Shown here in pieces: positions 13,314 through 58,452 of a stretch of DNA of 64,000 nucleotides; the first letter of the stretch is position 1; each line of letters opens with the position of its first letter. Source of the DNA: Nitrospirota bacterium (GTDB taxonomy: Bacteria; Nitrospirota; Nitrospiria; Nitrospirales; Nitrospiraceae). Under the pieces are notes generated by a model. That model saw only the letters and a list, made by a program, of their open reading frames with translations, searched no databases and was not told the origin of the DNA. The stretch covers positions 1 to 64,000 of the forward strand of contig JACRLR010000007.1 in assembly GCA_016219645.1 (NCBI GenBank), read 5' to 3'. The position numbers were made by a program, and so were the translations under genes.

Positions 13314-14072
13314 TCATCCGCGTGACGGAATCGAGAGAAAATTCACAGGAGGGAGTTGTCTGCCTGCCACTACCGTCACATACCCTTCAATCGCATTCTC
13401 CACCTCGTGCCGAACCTGCCCGGCGGCTTTCAGACGATCGATCACAGCAGGCGAAAGCCGCAACGCCTGCTGAAGAAATGCCAAGCTCCCTCGCGAGAGC
13501 GGCACACAGCGGAACGCCTGGCGCGCGGCGCAGGCGACACAGACCAGGCCTCCTGACAGAGGTGAGAACTGCGGCTCTCCCACCAACCGACTCTGACCAC
13601 AGGCGGTGCAGTGATCGGTCTGAGGGCGAAACCCGATAAGGCCCAGCAGTCGAATCTGAAACAAGAGGGCCGTCAATGCCGGGTCCTGGCTCATGACTAA
13701 TGCGTGCAATCCCTGTTCAAGCGTCTCGAAGAGCTGCTGGTCTGGATCCCCGTCTGGCGTCACCGCGCCCACCACATTGACCATCCGTGCGGCAGCGGTC
13801 ATCCGCGTCAAGTCTTCGCGGAAACTCATGAACGGTTCCACGAGATCGACTTGAGAAATTCTATAGAGTGAATCCCCAGATTTTTCGAACAGGTTCAGAT
13901 GGCAGACGGTAAGGGGTTCGAGTGATGCGCCGAGACGGCTCTTCATCCGACGAGCTCCACGCGCCACACCCCGAACCTTTCCCCGCTCCTTGGTATAGAA
14001 GGTCACGATACGATCGGCATCGCCCCACTTCCGACTTTTCAGCGTGATGGCCGCAGTCTTGATCAGCGGCAT
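13314..14072 (-). CDS. recO: DNA repair protein RecO
   Basis: 252 residues. The N-terminal OB-fold has IKTAAITLKSRKWGDADRIVTFYTKERGKV and GVARGARRMKSRLGASLEPL. The C-terminal half carries a zinc site, HCTACGQ with a later GLVCVACAARQAF. Role: loads RecA on single-stranded DNA coated with SSB, with RecR, in gap repair. AGGGG lies upstream of the ATG. Length is normal. It stands alone between two repeat elements. Confidence 0.95.
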   Translation of the reverse strand: MPLIKTAAITLKSRKWGDADRIVTFYTKERGKVRGVARGARRMKSRLGASLEPLTVCHLNLFEKSGDSLYRISQVDLVEPFMSFREDLTRMTAAARMVNVVGAVTPDGDPDQQLFETLEQGLHALVMSQDPALTALLFQIRLLGLIGFRPQTDHCTACGQSRLVGEPQFSPLSGGLVCVACAARQAFRCVPLSRGSLAFLQQALRLSPAVIDRLKAAGQVRHEVENAIEGYVTVVAGRQLPPVNFLSIPSRG

Positions 14073-14212
14073 GGGAAATACCCCTGTCGAGACAGAAGAT
14101 AGGCATGGCCGCCAGGTTGCGCAGTCTTTCCCATTATCAGTTTCCTGAACAACTCAGTTTTTGTGTGACACACAGCTGTGATAATACGTATGGTGATAGC
14201 GCTTGACGGTCA

Positions 14213-14366
14213 GCAGGATGCTCAAAAAGTTCGTCCAGCAAGGCCGCGCGAATAGAGAAGGTTTAGGTCGAGGTTAAGGTCAAGTGTCGAGCAGGTTCTT
14301 GTTTGCTCAACCTTAGTCTCAGCCTTAACCTTCCCATAACGCTGGCGGACTTTTTCAGCATCCTGC
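14213..14366. repeat. Palindromic element, copy A, with hexamer hairpin core
   Basis: The outer arms GCAGGATGCTCAAAAAG and CTTTTTCAGCATCCTGC match the other copies. The usual GTAC-centred core is replaced by a period-6 array (GGTTTA, GGTCGA, GGTTAA, GGTCAA) and its complement. The right end shares one base with the mgtE stop codon. Confidence 0.85.
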
Positions 14367-15865
14367 TAGCGAAGGTATCCCATGAATACTGTGGCCAGAG
14401 AGAGATAGATGGTAATACCCGTAATGTCATTCGCCGTTGTCACAAAGGGGCCGGCCGCTACGGCAGGATCCACCCCCATGCGCTTCAGAAAGATAGGCAT
14501 GAATGTCGCCATACTGGTCGAAACCATGAATGCCAAAATCAGCGATACCCCAACGACCATGCCAAGGAACTCTTGATGCCATATCCAACCGACGACAGTG
14601 AGAATCACACCGCAGGCAAGCCCCATCAGTAGCCCTATCTTGATTTCCCTCAAAAAGACAGCGCGCACATCCGTCAGTTCAATCAGCCCTGTCGCCAATC
14701 CTCGGATGATAAGGGTCGAGGACTGGAGGCCCACGTTTCCCCCCATGGCGGCGATGACCGGAATAAAAGTCACGATGGCCACGACTTCCTGAATCGTATA
14801 CCGAAACTCCCACAGGATTGCACCAGAGAGCAGACTGCCGACCAGATTCGTAAAGAGCCACGGAAGCCGGTGCTTCGCCGACGCCACACTGGAAGATTTT
14901 GAGGCCGTCCCCTCCTCAATCGCACCGGCCATCTTGAGCATGTCTTCGGTCGCTTCTTCCCGGATCACGTCTACAACATCGTCAACCGTAATAATACCGA
15001 CCAATCTGTTGTCGTTGTCGAGGACCGGAATCGCGAGCAAGTTGTAACTCGCTACCTGACGGGCGACTTCTTCTTGGTCCATGTCGACAGTCACACTGAT
15101 AATATCGCGCGTCACGAAGTTTTTCAGCGGCGTCGAAGGAGGGACCGTCAGTAACCGCCGCAGTGAGAGCACCCCGACCAAGCGCTCATCCTTGTCGATC
15201 ACATAAATATAGAACACCATTTCCGTATCGGTCGCCAGCTGGAGACGTTGGATGGCATCCTGCGCCGTTGCATCTTCCGAAAGCGCAAAGAACTCTGTCG
15301 TCATGATGCCGCCTGCCGTACCCTTCGGATACTTCAGCAGGTCGGCAACTTCCGTGGAGTCCTCCTTCCGCATCAGCGAGAGGATTTCTTTGGCCCGTTC
15401 TTCCGGCAACACCCCGAGGAGATAGGCCACATCGTCAGGGCCGAGGTCTTTGATCAGCCAGGCGATATCCGAATGCAGTAGATCCGCCAGCACTTGATTG
15501 ATACTGTCGCTGTCAAGCTCGCTCAGCACTTGGCCGCGCTTCGATTCACCTCGCACCAGTTCGAAGACTTCCCTCTTTTCTTTGGGGGAAGAGAGATGCG
15601 TAATGACTTGCGCAATATCGGCCTGATGCATTCGGCCCAGCATCTTCGCGAGATTGGTGATTGCACCCCGGTGCAACAGCCGTTGCACCGACAACAGCAC
15701 GATGTCGGACTTGGTCCTGCCCCGATCAGCCTGATCACGTAGCGTGTCGCGGAGGAGATCTTTATCCCCAGGGCGAGGACCAGGTTCCGCCGGATTGGAT
15801 TCTGTTACGCGTTCGGTCGGTTGCATCGTCACATCCGGTCTAAAAGTCTGAATGCCAAATGTCAT
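14366..15865 (-). CDS. mgtE: Magnesium transporter MgtE
   Basis: About 499 residues. The N-terminal superhelical domain runs to about 190 with LPEERAKEILSLMRKEDSTEVADLLKYP. The tandem CBS domains follow (TAGGIMTTEFFALSEDATAQDAI; VTRDIISVTVDMDQEEVARQVASYNLLAIPVLD). The membrane domain of five helices begins after LPWLFTNLVGSLLSG and contains VAAGPFVTTANDITGITIY with the ion-pathway aspartate. Role: Mg2+ channel gated by Mg2+ at the cytosolic domains. TTG at 15868 is one codon upstream and cannot be excluded. The TAG stop sits exactly at the edge of repeat element A. Confidence 0.95.
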   Translation of the reverse strand: MTFGIQTFRPDVTMQPTERVTESNPAEPGPRPGDKDLLRDTLRDQADRGRTKSDIVLLSVQRLLHRGAITNLAKMLGRMHQADIAQVITHLSSPKEKREVFELVRGESKRGQVLSELDSDSINQVLADLLHSDIAWLIKDLGPDDVAYLLGVLPEERAKEILSLMRKEDSTEVADLLKYPKGTAGGIMTTEFFALSEDATAQDAIQRLQLATDTEMVFYIYVIDKDERLVGVLSLRRLLTVPPSTPLKNFVTRDIISVTVDMDQEEVARQVASYNLLAIPVLDNDNRLVGIITVDDVVDVIREEATEDMLKMAGAIEEGTASKSSSVASAKHRLPWLFTNLVGSLLSGAILWEFRYTIQEVVAIVTFIPVIAAMGGNVGLQSSTLIIRGLATGLIELTDVRAVFLREIKIGLLMGLACGVILTVVGWIWHQEFLGMVVGVSLILAFMVSTSMATFMPIFLKRMGVDPAVAAGPFVTTANDITGITIYLSLATVFMGYLR

Positions 15866-15911
15866 CAAGTCTTGGATCTGGACACGATGACGTTATCACC
15901 TTCACGACTAT

Positions 15912-36147: not shown

Positions 36148-36252
36148 CCGGATGCTCAAACGGGCCAGTCAACAAGGCCGCAGGCGTACCCTTGGGGTAC
36201 GTTGAGGATTTGTGCGAGCCGAGAACGCAGTTGATGGCCCGTTTCAGCATCA
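36148..36252. repeat. Palindromic element, copy D
   Basis: GGATGCTCAAACGGG on the left pairs with CCCGTTTCAGCATC on the right. It contains CAACAAGGCCGCAGG, a GTACCCTTGGGGTAC core, and GAGAACGCAG. Confidence 0.85.
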
Positions 36253-36332
36253 GGCTAGCAGGCTGCGGAAAAACTCGGTTATACATAAAGCGTAAATGGA
36301 ATCGTATGTATAGCGCTGGTAGCAAAATAATC

Positions 36333-36455
36333 GCAGGATGCTCAAAATGGCCGTCCAGCAAGGCCGCAGCGAGCGAAGAGGCGAGGCGTACGCTTCGGTA
36401 CGTTGAGCCTCTGAGCGAAGCGAGAACGACGCTGGCGGACTTTTTCAGCATCCTG
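36333..36455. repeat. Palindromic element, copy E
   Basis: GCAGGATGCTCAAAATGG pairs with the right end CTTTTTCAGCATCCTGC. The core is GTACGCTTCGGTACG, flanked by GCGAGCGAAG-type words. Its end abuts the TAG stop of the TonB-dependent receptor, as copy A does with mgtE. Confidence 0.88.
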
Positions 36456-52649: not shown

Positions 52650-54118
52650 CCCCTTCCATAATCGTCCTGAAACCGCACGATATCGTCCTCGCCAAGATAA
52701 GGCCCGTGTTGCACTTCAATAATGTGCAGAACCTCCTGGCCGGGATTTTCCAACCTGTGAGGAGTTTCAACCGGAATCTCTGTGCTATGCCCAACTTTCA
52801 GATCGAACAGCTCGTCCCCTCTGGTCACACGGGCTGTTCCCGCAATCACGACCCAGTGTTCGCTGCGCTTGTGGTGCATCTGCAAAGACAGCCGTCCCCC
52901 TGGATTCACCGTCACCCGCTTCACCTTGTAGCCGGGACCTTCCTCGAGGACGGTGTAGGAACCCCAGGGCCGATGGACGGTGACATGCTCTAAATGTTCC
53001 GGCGCACCTTGATGCTTGAGCACCTCCACCATTTTCTTCACATCCTGGGCTCGGGATTTGGGACAGATGAGCGTGGCATCGGGCGTATCCACGACCACCA
53101 TGTCCGTCAAACCGATCGTGGCCACAACTCGCCGATCACCATAGAAGATCGATCGCCGGCTGTCGATATCGACCACGCGACCGACCATGACATTGCCGGC
53201 CTTATCCTTCGATGCCACCTCATCCAAGCTGCCCCAACTCCCGACATCCGACCATCGAAAGGCGACCGGCACGACCGCAGATTTTGTAGACTTCTCCATG
53301 ACTCCCGTATCGATCGACACAGAGGGCAATGTTCGATATTCCTCATCGATCGTGGATCGTGATGCATGTTGCTCAATCAAACGGCCGATTTTTTCGATAC
53401 CTCGAAAAAGAACCGATTGGTGACGACGGATCTCGTCAAGAATTGTTGCGGCACGCCACACAAACATCCCGCTGTTCCAATAGTAATCACCGGCCTTGAG
53501 ATATTGCGCCGCCTTGGCGGCATCAGGCTTCTCGACGAATCGAGCCACTGGATGCCCTTTGAGCTTGCCCTGTTTCGCCAGGACAGTCCTCCGGTTCGGC
53601 TTAATGTAGCCGTAACCTGTTTCAGGTCGGATCGGTTGAATCCCAAAGGTGACCAAAAGTCCCTCTGCTGCAAGATTTGATGCGAGAGACACAGCTGCAT
53701 CGAAATCGCGCTGGCCTTTCACAATATGATCAGCAGGCACAACCACCATAATGGCATCCGGATCCCGACGGACCAATTCCAACGCCACCAGCGCAATGGC
53801 AGGAGCAGTATTGCGCCCTTCCGGTTCAAGTACGAAGTTGTTCCTGAGCGCGTCTTTCCATTCACTCAACTGGACCCGAATGGACTCGGCCTGGGCTGGA
53901 TTCGTAGAGATCATGACCCGGTCAGGCGCCGAAGCACAGACCACCCTGCGCATGGTCTGCTGAATCAACGTTTCATCTCCCATAATCCGCAACAGCTGTT
54001 TGGGAAACAATTGCCGGCTCAGTGGCCAAAACCTCGTCCCGCTCCCGCCTGCCATGATCACGGGATAGAGATGCGAACTCTGTTTGAGGTTCGAGGTTTG
54101 AGGTTTGAGGGAGGGCAT
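52631..54118 (-). CDS. manC: Mannose-1-phosphate guanylyltransferase / mannose-6-phosphate isomerase
   Basis: 495 residues. Nucleotidyltransferase domain: YPVIMAGGSGTRFWPLSRQLFPKQLL, then VVPADHIVKG and FVEKPDAAKAAQYL. C-terminal cupin isomerase domain: VHRPWGSYTVLEEGPGYKVKRV, PGGRLSLQMHHKRSEHWVV. It supplies GDP-mannose. The start is supported by AGGAG 8 bp upstream, which means the first 15 residues (LKPQTSNLK...) are translated from a heptamer array; the last few residues and stop come from another. Confidence 0.96.
   Translation of the reverse strand: MPSLKPQTSNLKQSSHLYPVIMAGGSGTRFWPLSRQLFPKQLLRIMGDETLIQQTMRRVVCASAPDRVMISTNPAQAESIRVQLSEWKDALRNNFVLEPEGRNTAPAIALVALELVRRDPDAIMVVVPADHIVKGQRDFDAAVSLASNLAAEGLLVTFGIQPIRPETGYGYIKPNRRTVLAKQGKLKGHPVARFVEKPDAAKAAQYLKAGDYYWNSGMFVWRAATILDEIRRHQSVLFRGIEKIGRLIEQHASRSTIDEEYRTLPSVSIDTGVMEKSTKSAVVPVAFRWSDVGSWGSLDEVASKDKAGNVMVGRVVDIDSRRSIFYGDRRVVATIGLTDMVVVDTPDATLICPKSRAQDVKKMVEVLKHQGAPEHLEHVTVHRPWGSYTVLEEGPGYKVKRVTVNPGGRLSLQMHHKRSEHWVVIAGTARVTRGDELFDLKVGHSTEIPVETPHRLENPGQEVLHIIEVQHGPYLGEDDIVRFQDDYGRGVKREA
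54083..54112. repeat. Heptamer array, core GAGGTTY, in the manC 5' end
   Basis: TTTGAGG, TTCGAGG, TTTGAGG, TTTGAGG on the plus strand: a single arm, translated as ManC residues 2-12. Confidence 0.8.
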
Positions 54119-54134
54119 AAACCGATCTCCTACC

Positions 54135-54722
54135 CTACGAGCGATTCCCTGAATGCGGAACAGTGACCTTAGACTTTCGACTTTCGACTTTCGATCTTTG
54201 CGCTTCCAGAATCATTTCGACAATCTCCCGGACTGCCCCTTCCCCGCCCTTCTTCTGGCAGACATAGTCGACCGCCGCCGCAATCTGTGTCATCCCGTCT
54301 GCCGGGCTGGCTGAAAATCCTACTGCCTTCAGCGCCTCAAGGTCGTTGATATCGTCACCGATATAGGCGACCTGGCTCAACGTCAACCCATGGCGCGCCG
54401 CCATCTCGCAGATACAAGACAACTTGTCCATCACCCCTTGGTGCAACTCGGGAATCGCGAGTTTTTCAGCCCGCCGCGCCACCAATTTCGTCCGTTCCTG
54501 TGTGACAATGGCGGTGATGATTCCAGCCCGCTGCAACAGCTTGATGCCCATCCCATCGCGCGTGTTGAACTTCTTCCACTCATCGCCGGACTCACCATAG
54601 TACATGCCTGCGTCCGTCAAGACCCCATCCACGTCGGTCGCAAACAGGCGGATCTGACTGAGCAGCTTGGGTGACACATTCCGGGGACGAGCTGTTTTCT
54701 TGGTTGCTGATCGTGGGGCCAT
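54135..54722 (-). CDS. kdsC: KdsC-type HAD phosphatase (KDO-8-phosphate phosphatase-like)
   Basis: 195 residues. HAD motif I LFATDVDGVLTDAGMYY, motif II-like VTQERTKLVARRAEKLAI, motif III/IV YIGDDINDLEALKAVGFS. The small size without a cap domain and the DGVLTDG-like motif fit the KdsC family, which dephosphorylates KDO-8-phosphate for lipopolysaccharide. The neighbours manC and rfbA support a surface glycan role. The C-terminus (AQRSKVESRKSKVT) is written by a heptamer array. Confidence 0.9.
   Translation of the reverse strand: MAPRSATKKTARPRNVSPKLLSQIRLFATDVDGVLTDAGMYYGESGDEWKKFNTRDGMGIKLLQRAGIITAIVTQERTKLVARRAEKLAIPELHQGVMDKLSCICEMAARHGLTLSQVAYIGDDINDLEALKAVGFSASPADGMTQIAAAVDYVCQKKGGEGAVREIVEMILEAQRSKVESRKSKVTVPHSGNRS
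54165..54199. repeat. Heptamer array, core AGTCGAA, in the kdsC 3' end
   Basis: CGAAAGT on the coding strand repeated about four times, translated as SKVESRKSKV. It is not complementary to the nearby manC array. Confidence 0.78.
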
Positions 54723-54726
54723 GAAG

Positions 54727-54826
54727 AGGTTTATTTGGTTTCTTTGGTTTCTTTGGTTTTCTCGTTGGTTAGTTGAACAAGGTCAACCAGATGAACAAAA
54801 CAAACGAAATACACCAGACAAACCAT
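54727..54826. repeat. Nonamer hairpin upstream of kdsC, core TTTGGTTYN
   Basis: Left units TTTGGTTTC x2; right arm with TGAACAAAA, CAAACGAAA, CAAACCATC. It lies immediately upstream of the kdsC ATG. Confidence 0.86.
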
Positions 54827-54898
54827 CTCTCTACGTTTCGCTGGCTATCCTAACTGACCGTGCCTAGCGCGGCAAAGTAAAAACCGAAGCTGCCATCC

Positions 54899-54951
54899 CT
54901 TCCCACTTCCCACTTGCTACTTGCTACTTCCTACTCACCACTCACTACCCC
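54899..54951. repeat. Heptamer array after rfbA, core AGTRGNN (minus strand)
   Basis: CTTCCCA, CTTGCTA, CTTCCTA, CTCACCA on the plus strand, about seven units. It follows the rfbA stop codon by about 10 bp. Confidence 0.85.
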
Positions 54952-54961
54952 GCTCCATACC

Positions 54962-55894
54962 TCAGAATACTTTCTCCTTGAGCACCCGCAGCAGGTATTG
55001 CCCATAGCCATTTTTAGTCAAGGACTGTGCGAGCTTCTCCAGTTGGGCCGCGTCGATCCACCCTTGCCTGTAGGCGATTTCTTCCGGACATGCCACCTTC
55101 AAGCCCTGCCGGTTTTCCAATGTGGCGATAAACTGGCTGGCGTCGAGCAACGATTCGTGGGTGCCGGTGTCCAGCCAGGCGTAACCACGGCCCATGATTT
55201 CAACGTGGAGCTTGCCTTGCTCCAGATACAAACGGTTGAGGTCGGTAATTTCCAGTTCACCGCGGGGGGAGGGCTTGAGACTTTTGGTCAGATCAACTAC
55301 TTGCCGATCGTAGAAATACAAACCGGTCACGGCATAGCTGGACTTCGGCTGTTTGGGCTTTTCCTCCAATGAGAGCACTCTACCGCTTGAGTCAAATTCG
55401 GCCACGCCGTAACGCTCAGGGTCCTGCACGTGGTACGCGAACACGGTCGCCCCTTCTGAACGGACCATGGCGTTGCCGAGCAGACGGTAGAAGTTATGGC
55501 CATAAAAGATGTTGTCGCCCAGCACCAGGGCACAGAGATCATTTCCAATGAACGATTCACCGATGAGGAACGCCTGTGCGAGACCATCGGGTGAAGGCTG
55601 CACGGCGTACACGAGATTGAGACCCCACTGCTCACCCCTCCCGAGCAACTGCTCAAACCGCGGGGTGTCCTGTGGCGTGGAAATGATAAGGACATCCCTG
55701 ATCCCCGCTAGCATCAGAGTGCTGAGCGGGTAATAAATCATCGGCTTGTCGAACACCGGCAACAGCTGTTTGCTGATTGCTAGTGTAGCCGGATGCAATC
55801 TGGTACCCGCGCCGCCGGCGAGGATGATGCCTTTCCTGGTAAGTAGTGAGTGGCCAGTAGTAAGTAGGGAGAGGGAAGTTGTGAGTTGCGTCAT
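54962..55894 (-). CDS. rfbA: Glucose-1-phosphate thymidylyltransferase
   Basis: 310 residues. [53 protein letters not shown], and [20 protein letters not shown] are RmlA motifs. It makes dTDP-glucose, the first step of dTDP-rhamnose synthesis. The ATG overlaps the stop of the four-helix-bundle gene (ATGA). The first 18 or so residues ([15 protein letters not shown]) are encoded by the right arm of a heptamer hairpin and precede the normal family start. Confidence 0.96.
55837..55890. repeat. Right arm of heptamer hairpin, in the rfbA 5' end
   Basis: On the plus strand GTAAGTA, GTGAGTG, GCCAGTA and so on (AGTRGNN). It faces the arm at 56236-56283, with the four-helix-bundle gene between them. 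Confidence 0.87.
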
Positions 55895-56244
55895 GTGGTG
55901 CTCAATTTCTTGTGCAAACCAGTTAATAATTTTCCGGTGCTATTGGCCAATTCAAACACTTGGTGATCCGGTACGGCGAAGCCAAGCATAACCGCTAGTT
56001 GCAATTGGGTTTCCAGTTCAGCCAACGAACCTCGCGATATCCCAATGAAGTTCAAGAACTCCTTTGGACTGTTTCGGCCGGCGCCTTCGGCAATATTGCT
56101 CGGTATAGACACAGCTGCTCGCCTCATCTGCTGAGCTAAGCCATAACGCTCTTCTGATGGAAACTCAGATGTCATTTGATAGACAGCCACTACCAACTGC
56201 ATCGCGTATTTCCAAGCTTCCAGCTGTTCATGTGGTTTCCCCAC
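55891..56244 (-). CDS. Four-helix-bundle protein (23S rRNA intervening-sequence family)
   Basis: 117 residues, GTG start. [32 protein letters not shown], then [46 protein letters not shown], is the signature of the S23/IVP four-helix-bundle family (TIGR02436). Relatives are encoded in 23S rRNA intervening sequences and, as Avd, in diversity-generating retroelements; they are basic nucleic-acid binders. The start and a GGGGAG ribosome-binding sequence lie inside a heptamer array, and the stop overlaps rfbA. Facing arms flank the gene on both sides. Confidence 0.93.
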
Positions 56245-56283
56245 TCCCTACTCCCCACTTACCACTTGCTACTTACTACTCTC
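56236..56283. repeat. Left arm of heptamer hairpin, rfbD 3' end to four-helix-bundle start
   Basis: Coding-strand units AGTAGTA, AGTAGCA, AGTGGTA, AGTGGGG. It supplies the rfbD stop codon (AAGTAG) and the GTG start of the next gene. Confidence 0.88.
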
Positions 56284-57168
56284 AAATATCTCTTGAAGAA
56301 TATGCCGGACACCACTTTGCCAGGTGGGCAATTCCACATCAAACGTACTGCGCAGTTTGCTCGTATCCAGCCGTGAGTTGGCCGGACGCGTGGCGGGCGT
56401 GGGATATTCGGAAGTGGTGATCGCGCGAATGGAATCCGGTGAGAGATTGAGTGACTTACCTGCAGCGAGGGCTTCCGACACAACAAACCTCGCATAGTCA
56501 CACCAGCTGGTCTCACCTCCAGCTACCAGATGATACAAACCAAAGCGGAAGTGTCCGCCCCTCTCACGCCATTGCTGCCGAACCAGCTGCGCCGTTACAT
56601 CAGCCAGCAAGGCAGCAGAAGTTGGCGCGCCATATTGATCCGCTACCACGTTCAAACTATCGCGCTCGACAGCCAGTCGCAGGATGGTTTTTGCAAAATT
56701 CCTCCCATGCGCTCCAACCACCCAACTCGTACGAAAGATCAAGTGTCGCGCCCCGCTTTGCTGGATCGCGATCTCACCGGCCCTCTTGGTGCGGCCATAG
56801 ACACTTTGCGGGTCCGTGAGGTCATCTTCAGTATAAGCGCCAGGCTTGAGGCCATCGAATACATAGTCGGTCGAGTAATGCACGACCCATGCGCCCTGTT
56901 TCGCCGCTTCTTCTCCGAGCACTCCGGGAGCGACGGTATTGATGGCGTGAGCCAGCTCCGGCTCAGATTCTGCCTTGTCCACTGCGGTATAGGCTGCGGG
57001 ATTGACGATCACATCTGGCTTCAACGACCGGACCAGGTCACGGATTGCAAGTCCATCGGCCAAATCACATTCAGGCTGATCTACGGCACAGATTTCCCCC
57101 AAGGGGGCCAGTGCACGCTGTAGCTCAAAACCGACCTGGCCCTGTTTGCCGGTCAATAGTATCTTCAT
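56269..57168 (-). CDS. rfbD: dTDP-4-dehydrorhamnose reductase
   Basis: 299 residues from ATG 57168 (MKILLTGKQGQVGFELQRAL); a TTG at 57201 would add repeat-encoded residues. GxxGQxG nucleotide motif, STDYVFDG, YGRTKRAGE (Tyr/Lys catalytic pair) and RTSWVVGAHGRNFAKTIL are RmlD signatures. It performs the last step of dTDP-L-rhamnose synthesis. Its stop codon TAG is part of the following heptamer array. rfbC is not seen in this window. Confidence 0.96.
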   Translation of the reverse strand: MKILLTGKQGQVGFELQRALAPLGEICAVDQPECDLADGLAIRDLVRSLKPDVIVNPAAYTAVDKAESEPELAHAINTVAPGVLGEEAAKQGAWVVHYSTDYVFDGLKPGAYTEDDLTDPQSVYGRTKRAGEIAIQQSGARHLIFRTSWVVGAHGRNFAKTILRLAVERDSLNVVADQYGAPTSAALLADVTAQLVRQQWRERGGHFRFGLYHLVAGGETSWCDYARFVVSEALAAGKSLNLSPDSIRAITTSEYPTPATRPANSRLDTSKLRSTFDVELPTWQSGVRHILQEIFESSK

Positions 57169-57171
57169 GCT

Positions 57172-57208
57172 CGGTGGTGAGTAGTGAGTAGCCAGTGGCA
57201 AGTGGAAA
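57172..57208. repeat. Right arm of heptamer hairpin upstream of rfbD
   Basis: Plus-strand units GGTGGTG, AGTAGTG, AGTAGCC, AGTGGCA. It faces the larger arm at 57266-57349 across about 57 bp. Confidence 0.85.
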
Positions 57209-57265
57209 ATGCCCCAAGCGTTGTGTGGAGTGATCGTCTAAGATTGGCCATTCCCGATTTCATAC

Positions 57266-57349
57266 CCCCCTACTCTCTACTTCCCACTCACTACTTACTA
57301 CTCGCCGTTCCCAACTTCCTACTTACCACTCGCTACCCACTACTTACCA
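57266..57349. repeat. Left arm of heptamer hairpin downstream of rfbB
   Basis: About twelve units on the plus strand such as CTACTTC, CCACTCA, CTACTTA. On the coding strand the first unit gives GGTAAGTAG, which contains the rfbB stop codon. Confidence 0.88.
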
Positions 57350-58452
57350 TATTGCCTTTCGACCCAGTTGCGGTAGGCACCGCTGGTTACGTTGGCAACC
57401 CAGCTTTGGTTATCCAGGTACCACTGCACGGTTTTGCGTATGCCGGTTTCGAAAGTTTCAGCAGGTTTCCAGCCCAATTCGCGCTCGATCTTGCCGGCGT
57501 TAATAGCATAACGGCCATCATGACCCGGGCGATCCTTCACAAAGGTAATCAGAGAGCGGTAAGTGGGGAGTGGGGGGGTCCCACTTCCTACTTCCCACTT
57601 CCTACTTCCCACTTGCCACTCACCACTCACCGGCTTTAGCTCATCCAGGATATCGCAGAGGGTATGGACAACGTCGAGATTGGTCTTTTCGCTCCCACCG
57701 CCAATATTGTAGACCTCGCCTACCCGACCGGCTTCGAGCACCCGCCGGATGGCACTGCAATGGTCGTTGACGTACAGCCAATCGCGGATCTGTTGGCCAT
57801 CACCATAGATCGGCAAGGGCTTGCCGCACAGTGCATTGTGGATCACCAGCGGAATGAGCTTTTCCGGGAACTGATAAGGACCGTAGTTGTTGGAGCAATT
57901 TGTCGTGAGAACCGGCAGACCGTAGGTGTGGTGGTAGGCACGCACCAGGTGGTCGCTGGCAGCTTTGCTGGCTGAATAGGGGCTATTGGGCTCGTAACGA
58001 TTTGTTTCACTGAAAGCCGGGTCATCTTTCTTTAATGAACCGTAGACCTCGTCGGTAGACACGTGGAGAAAACGGAATTGGCCTTTGGCCTCACCCTCCA
58101 GCTTGTTCCAGTAGGCACACACCGATTCCAGCAGATGAAAGGTACCGACAATGTTGGTCTGGATGAATTCGCCTGGGCCGTGGATGGAGCGGTCGACATG
58201 GCTCTCAGCGGCAAAGTTGATGACGGCGCGGGGACGGTGCTCGGCCAACAGTCGATCGACCAGCGCAGTCTCGCCGATGTCGCCGCGCACGAAGACATGC
58301 CGTTCATCGCCTTGCACACCGGCGAGATTTTCGAGATTGCCCGCATAGGTGAGCTTGTCGAGATTGACGATAGGCTCGTCGTGGTGCGCCAGCCAGTCGA
58401 CAACGAAGTTGGCGCCGATAAACCCGGCTCCGCCGGTAACTACGATACTCAT
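57340..58452 (-). CDS. rfbB: dTDP-glucose 4,6-dehydratase with an in-frame repeat insertion
   Basis: 370 residues against about 350 in most relatives. NAD motif [14 protein letters not shown] at the N-terminus; [24 protein letters not shown] with the catalytic Tyr/Lys; [17 protein letters not shown]; late motif [14 protein letters not shown]. Between LDELKP and YRSLITFV about 25 residues ([17 protein letters not shown]...) replace the short loop of other RmlB proteins. They are encoded by a heptamer hairpin. The loop lies away from the catalytic residues in sequence, so activity may be kept (inference). Confidence 0.96.
57557..57633. repeat. Heptamer hairpin inserted inside rfbB
   Basis: Plus strand GTAAGTGGGGAGTGGG, then TCCCACTTCC followed by CTACTTC/CCACTTC-type units to CACTCACCGG. 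It is self-complementary and in frame with rfbB (residues about 274-298). Confidence 0.92.

Follow-up and report, generated by a model that had tools for sequence, protein, structure and literature searches.

Nitrospira genomes carry a family of MITE-like palindromes with separable hairpin cores, among them a hexamer array

BrickBuilt, a MITE of Porphyromonas gingivalis, is described as having a fixed-period middle with a leader and a tail, and ends that resemble the IS5 family (PMC4596501). IS5-type elements are reported to duplicate a YTAR target (PMC10359306), and GTAG/CGTC REPs to form arrays at EPS genes in Thauera (PMC3733652). For Nitrospira, no account of the palindrome family presented here was found in the open-licence literature, and one Nitrospira genome paper, in its accessible part, names palindromic repeats only as CRISPR. 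Here, we describe a composite repeat (copy A) in a 64,000-nucleotide stretch of contig JACRLR010000007.1 (the window), whose host genome (G000) is a Nitrospira, the close RecO relatives being Nitrospira MAGs. Copy A is a member of a genus-wide Nitrospira family of ~125-250 bp MITE-like palindromes, in which the palindrome arms are conserved and paired and the core is a separable module. Our reading as a whole, to which we assign a probability of roughly 70%, is of a MITE-like family with exchangeable cores, in which a hexamer composite has spread and exchange would be mediated by the arms.

Copy A in the recO-mgtE spacer

Copy A lies in the spacer between recO (13314-14072, minus strand) and mgtE (14366-15868, minus strand), with the mgtE stop codon as its insertion point (Table 1). 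Its arms (14212-14233 and 14346-14367) are 22 nt each, 91% complementary and separated by 112 nt, and enclose a 5' hexamer array (GGTTTA GGTCGA GGTTAA GGTCAA, 14260-14283) and a complementary 3' array (TCAACC TTAGTC TCAGCC TTAACC, 14307-14330). The DNA fold of 14205-14375 has a free energy of -37.4 kcal/mol (z -5.6), which none of 200 dinucleotide shuffles equalled. Arm pairing, hexamer positions and fold confirm what a sequence-only reading of this DNA had proposed, namely arms kept around a period-6 centre and its complement. The array has only four divergent units and is absent from the Tandem Repeats Finder list at default score, and Rfam gives 0 matches in the window at gathering scores. 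The mobile unit is longer than the span first noted, and addition of a 75-nt tail extends it to 14138-14365. Copy B adjoins an older, degenerate GTAC element (~36150-36254), one unit having inserted at the end of another.

Table 1. Features of copies A and B in the window, and loci with other arrays or cores in relatives
Feature	Window position or loci	Strand	Remark
Probable degenerate target duplication TTAT, recO side	14134..14137	.	Relatives without insert: mgtE stop CTAA/ATAA, then TGGGA directly
Copy A tail, including degenerate outer inverted repeat 14138-14155 (consensus CAGGCTGCnGAAAAACTC)	14138..14211	+	Tail equivalent shortened in L143
Left arm and inner-left segment, common to hexamer-core and GTAC-core elements	14213..14257	+	
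Hexamer array, 5' arm of exchanged core	14258..14283	+	
Apical loop of hexamer core, conserved in type-a copies	14284..14306	+	
Complementary hexamer array, 3' arm of exchanged core	14307..14333	+	
Right arm, inverted-repeat end of unit	14340..14366	+	
CTAG target duplication	14366..14369	.	Minus strand holds mgtE stop TAG (14368-14366)
Copy B, full unit with tail and GTAC core	36259..36455	+	CTAG on both sides
Relatives with GTGAAACGT-type array at recO-mgtE	L129-L131, L134, L136, L140-L142, L144, L145		
Hexamer-core loci with GTAC core in a relative	C7_14k (copy A), C52_25k, C52_48k, C7_104k, C30_81k, C16_112k, C18_285k, C4_2k		
Hexamer-core locus with period-9 core in a relative	C10_86k		

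At the same recO-mgtE position as copy A, Nitrospira RSF11 (G061; locus L143) carries a GTAC-core element, which represents the uninterrupted copy. Among 17 relatives, 10 have a different, GTGAAACGT-type hairpin array directly after the mgtE stop and 5 have a short, element-free spacer with CTAA or ATAA as the mgtE stop, while a single arm with a period-9 hairpin stands at this site in L133. A degenerate outer end, GGAAACTG, is common to copy A and L143; it occurs in 1 of the 49 tail ends listed for the loci fetched from G000 and G061, that of copy A itself. In an mgtE-recO tree, the sister of the window is L130 and that of L143 is L144, both of them element-free. Copy A and the L143 element thus sit on separate branches, each beside a sister with no element, so parallel insertion or horizontal transfer of the locus may account for copy A.

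Spread, ends and target duplication of the family

A search for the right-arm 20-mer with up to 3 mismatches gave 214 genome sites versus 0 for the reversed control, and the hexamer pattern gave 272 versus 1. Arms were found in all 32 genomes of the Nitrospira genus set and are rare outside it; with up to 2 mismatches, 44 of the 61 genomes searched had matches. Hexamer arrays are patchier than the arms, with at least one site in 22 of the 32 genus-set genomes, several of which have one only.

The unit consists of an outer inverted repeat, a ~75-nt tail and the long palindrome, and is bounded by terminal inverted repeats (outer repeat CAGGCTGCnGAAAAACTC, right end CAGGATGCTGAAAAAGTC). An outer inverted repeat is found on the far side of a tail, usually 74-76 nt long, in 48 of 151 distinct elements. 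Empty sites in G030 reveal a TTAG duplication at C20_77k (unit of 227 bp) and at L282 (201 bp), and a YTAG duplication at L299 (124 bp, without tail); set against empty sites, the YTAG/YTAA duplications of L299 and L275 are partly degenerate. Identical YTAR sequences flank 15 of the 48 tailed elements on both sides (background YTAR, 0.5% per position), and the duplicated TAR is the exact stop codon of an open frame of at least 80 codons at 56 of 136 right ends, versus 0.3% of random positions; part of this excess is expected because, of the 71 YTAR sites outside coding sequence in the window, ~15 coincide with stop codons. Among tailed copies, the stop codon is at the right end in 19 of 46 versus the tail end in 7 of 46. 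The family targets YTAR, duplicates 4 bp on insertion and frequently lands on stop codons, and copy A fits this plan in both its tail and the CTAG that contains the mgtE stop. The elements are probably selfish, without a host role. Inspection by eye of the 10 pairs of facing ends that lie 600-3000 bp from each other in the fetched loci revealed no transposase, and L249, considered as a transposase carrier with 1416 bp between its ends, was not recognised as such.

Small terminal hairpins and a high copy number recall REP/REPIN-type elements moved by a Y1 (RAYT) transposase, and the sole Y1_Tnp (IS200-like) gene found in the genome (L071:11099-12040, within a hexamer-rich region) has a degenerate palindromic element ~75 nt past its start and, in the region scanned, none on the other side. 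We nevertheless regard such an origin as extremely unlikely, given units of 124-227 bp and a 4-bp target duplication; Y1 elements are not known to produce target duplications. Here CTAG/TTAG is part of the target rather than of the element, and no GTAG or CGTC tag within a 20-40 bp repeat was found, the terminal YTAG being duplicated target.

Core types and core differences at fixed sites

Most elements have as their core a GTAC hairpin, of which there are several subtypes. Alternative cores are a period-9 GGTTTGTCT hairpin (L117, L294, L260) and a GTGAAGCGT hairpin (L038), and some elements hold inserted TTCTCACCCGCCC or CCTGCCTGCGCG modules. Across 73 GTAC elements, 14 pairs of the predicted 35-pair hairpin have changed on both sides, a number reached by none of 500 shuffles, and slid partners make the signal collapse. 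Among the paired-arm elements fetched from this genome, 17 of 80 distinct ones had the hexamer core, a proportion not to be read as a genome frequency since elements were picked via matches to copy A and the arms; among those from RSF11, 0 of 71 had it. Of 13 loci inspected in relatives, 8 have it at the matching internal position. Two hexamer types, as read from alignments, differ in their loops and in how they are oriented within the arms.

When hexamer-core and GTAC-core elements are aligned, the left core border follows GGCCGCAGCGAnnGAAGA and the right one precedes AACG(nn)GCTGGCGG; the distal stem is swapped as a whole and the arms are kept. The earlier proposal that a hexamer hairpin had replaced or entered the loop of a palindromic element thus holds for replacement of the inner part but is not supported, for the hexamers, as regards entry into the loop, the distal stem being swapped whole and the hexamer cores having the same borders. 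Fixed-period arrays recur at that internal position in this genome and in relatives, the borders are clean, and GTAC-core elements at orthologous sites, including recO-mgtE of RSF11, provide the uninterrupted copies that the sequence-only reading suggested seeking. Its further idea that existing hairpin loops are targeted found no support for hexamers, loop insertion being seen for other modules.

It is very improbable that the hexamer hairpin is itself mobile and inserts into hairpin loops. C10:1-30k and C20:1-62k are rich in armless hexamer arrays, the same hairpin stands without arms at C10_59k, and other modules do occupy the apical loops of GTAC hairpins (L034, L283, L339 and the G030 copy at C52_48k); however, the GTAC stem is replaced rather than split, no GTAC hairpin interrupted by a hexamer hairpin occurs among the elements examined, and the hexamer cores have shared borders and similar loops, as from one event followed by spread.

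For differences at fixed sites, 27 hexamer-core loci were queried in three draft assemblies (G061, G030 and G018). For 9 of the 27 (Table 1), one or more relatives had a different core at that site, and for one (C21_61k) the same core was present. No element was present at C20_77k, C52_58k and C10_98k in the relatives resolved, nor at C16_133k in G030, and C30_56k, C15_62k and C21_70k seem to lack one in relatives; some hexamer copies, such as C20_77k and C52_58k, are plain new insertions. G030 has another large composite at C10_133k and only a short scar at C7_104k, consistent with deletion between 7-bp repeats. C10_59k lacks arms, and the remaining hexamer-core loci were one-sided or unresolved; only the 9 loci and the one named above enter the counts. 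At C18_285k, GTAC looks ancestral because G030 and G018 both carry it (the G061 copy is truncated). Together with C18_285k, the strongest cases for exchange at hexamer-core sites are C4_2k, C52_48k and C52_25k. Arm variants are common to both cores at C4_2k (AAAAATCCCGCC, 2 of 151 in the pool), C52_48k (a right-arm variant, 1 of 151) and C52_25k (GATGTTC, 4 of 151), and the shared variant of copy A has 8 of 151, where the 151-element pool can include the copy itself. Boundaries are identical on both sides at C52_25k, C52_48k and C18_285k.

In a control set of 16 GTAC loci, L298 is identical in G030, L280, L282 and L299 are empty, and three (L291, L275 and L020) have another GTAC subtype; L293 has another subtype with shifted borders, and the rest have other repeats or are unresolved. 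At L291 the arm variant GACGTTGAAAAAGTCCCCCAGC is common to G000, G030 and G061 and the GTAC subtype differs in G000; this private arm variant in three genomes points to a change of core in place. Cores also differ between L038 and L312 and between L286 and L251, while L034 and L314 have the same core, with insertions. The subtype and core changes at GTAC loci imply that core change is common and extends beyond the hexamer core. At L278, G030 has a hexamer core in the opposite orientation, which fits re-insertion, as core and orientation both differ.

On a rival account, hexamer-core and GTAC-core elements would have hit the same YTAR sites separately, many of them stop codons, where the earlier copy had been lost or was never present, and no core exchange would take place. 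Repeat insertions are made likelier by YTAR specificity and heavy stop-codon use (56/136 right ends), C52_25k is empty in G030 and occupied in G000 and G061, and the mgtE-recO tree at the copy A site, like L278, fits separate events. Against this, private arm variants span different cores at L291, C52_48k, C4_2k and C52_25k, and the same boundaries recur on both sides at C52_25k, C52_48k and C18_285k, and we consider independent insertion unlikely. Overall arm similarity separates orthologs from random copies poorly: over 11 pairs, the median fraction of the pool that equalled or exceeded the ortholog in similarity was 0.27 (combined p 0.017). Several orthologs fall below the pool mean, and the shared-variant excess is small once the misregistered C4_2k pair is left out, so weight is placed on the named variants and their counts. 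Exchange of cores at fixed sites while the arms stayed is best shown at L291 and supported at several other loci.

Under our preferred reading of arm-mediated exchange, the hexamer composite would have arisen once in the lineage and may have spread both by transposition and by replacement of GTAC cores. The most likely route of exchange between copies would be ectopic gene conversion, or template switching during replication, by way of the arms they share, and either process would be the simplest explanation of stem replacement with kept arms. It is distinctly doubtful that the arms are instead an exchange platform whose cargo, hairpin cores including fixed-period arrays, is swapped faster than copies are lost, perhaps through cassette exchange by the mobilising transposase at the arms and not by ordinary homologous recombination.

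Several other repeats were observed. Armless hexamer arrays are concentrated in L069-L075 (C20:1-66k, C10:1-34k, C53:1-14k), a region that includes polysaccharide export genes; exact arrays there have exactly four units in 44 of 60 cases, and some lie in open frames, giving SLNLNLNLNL close to the beginning of a protein or KVEVE where one ends. The C10/C20 repeat clusters were also considered as an integron (attC); this reading was rejected, the genes there being chromosomal, among them those for polysaccharide export and malic enzyme. The apical loops of GTAC hairpins at L034, L283, L339 and L364 hold other modules, and L034 has an uninterrupted ortholog, L314. The left flank of C7_217k (G000 C7:217424-217582) belongs to another repeat family of ~153 bp, whose many copies in each of the three relatives searched reach 90% identity. 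Several short arrays (periods 7, 9, 14, 21 and 28) at 54082-57627 of the window resemble other hairpin-array families.

Comparison with known systems

Different cores in the same mobile hairpin at the same site across related genomes provide a natural series for measuring how fast, in which direction and at which borders exchange occurs. The family also offers a case of a fixed-period hairpin recruited into a MITE and then spreading genome-wide, and a source of mobile markers, associated with stop codons, for a nitrifying genus of environmental importance. Like GTAG/CGTC REPs, these elements are intergenic palindromes that form dimers with conserved or variable spacers and insert inside other palindromes, but GTAG/CGTC REPs are 20-40 bp units whose tag belongs to the repeat, and the consulted part of their description does not mention Nitrospira (PMC3733652). 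The GC clusters of yeast mitochondria are likewise mobile palindromes that merge and shuffle units, in organelle DNA, with no alternative fixed-period cores described in the portion available (PMC4478555). The 4-bp YTAR duplication is that of the IS5 subgroup (PMC10359306); no transposase or matching full-length element was identified here for the Nitrospira family. BrickBuilt differs in its 23-nt direct repeats and 19 copies per genome, and no swap of alternative hairpin cores at orthologous sites appears in the excerpted account; with the Nitrospira family, it shares the plan of a MITE that has a fixed-period array as its middle (PMC4596501).
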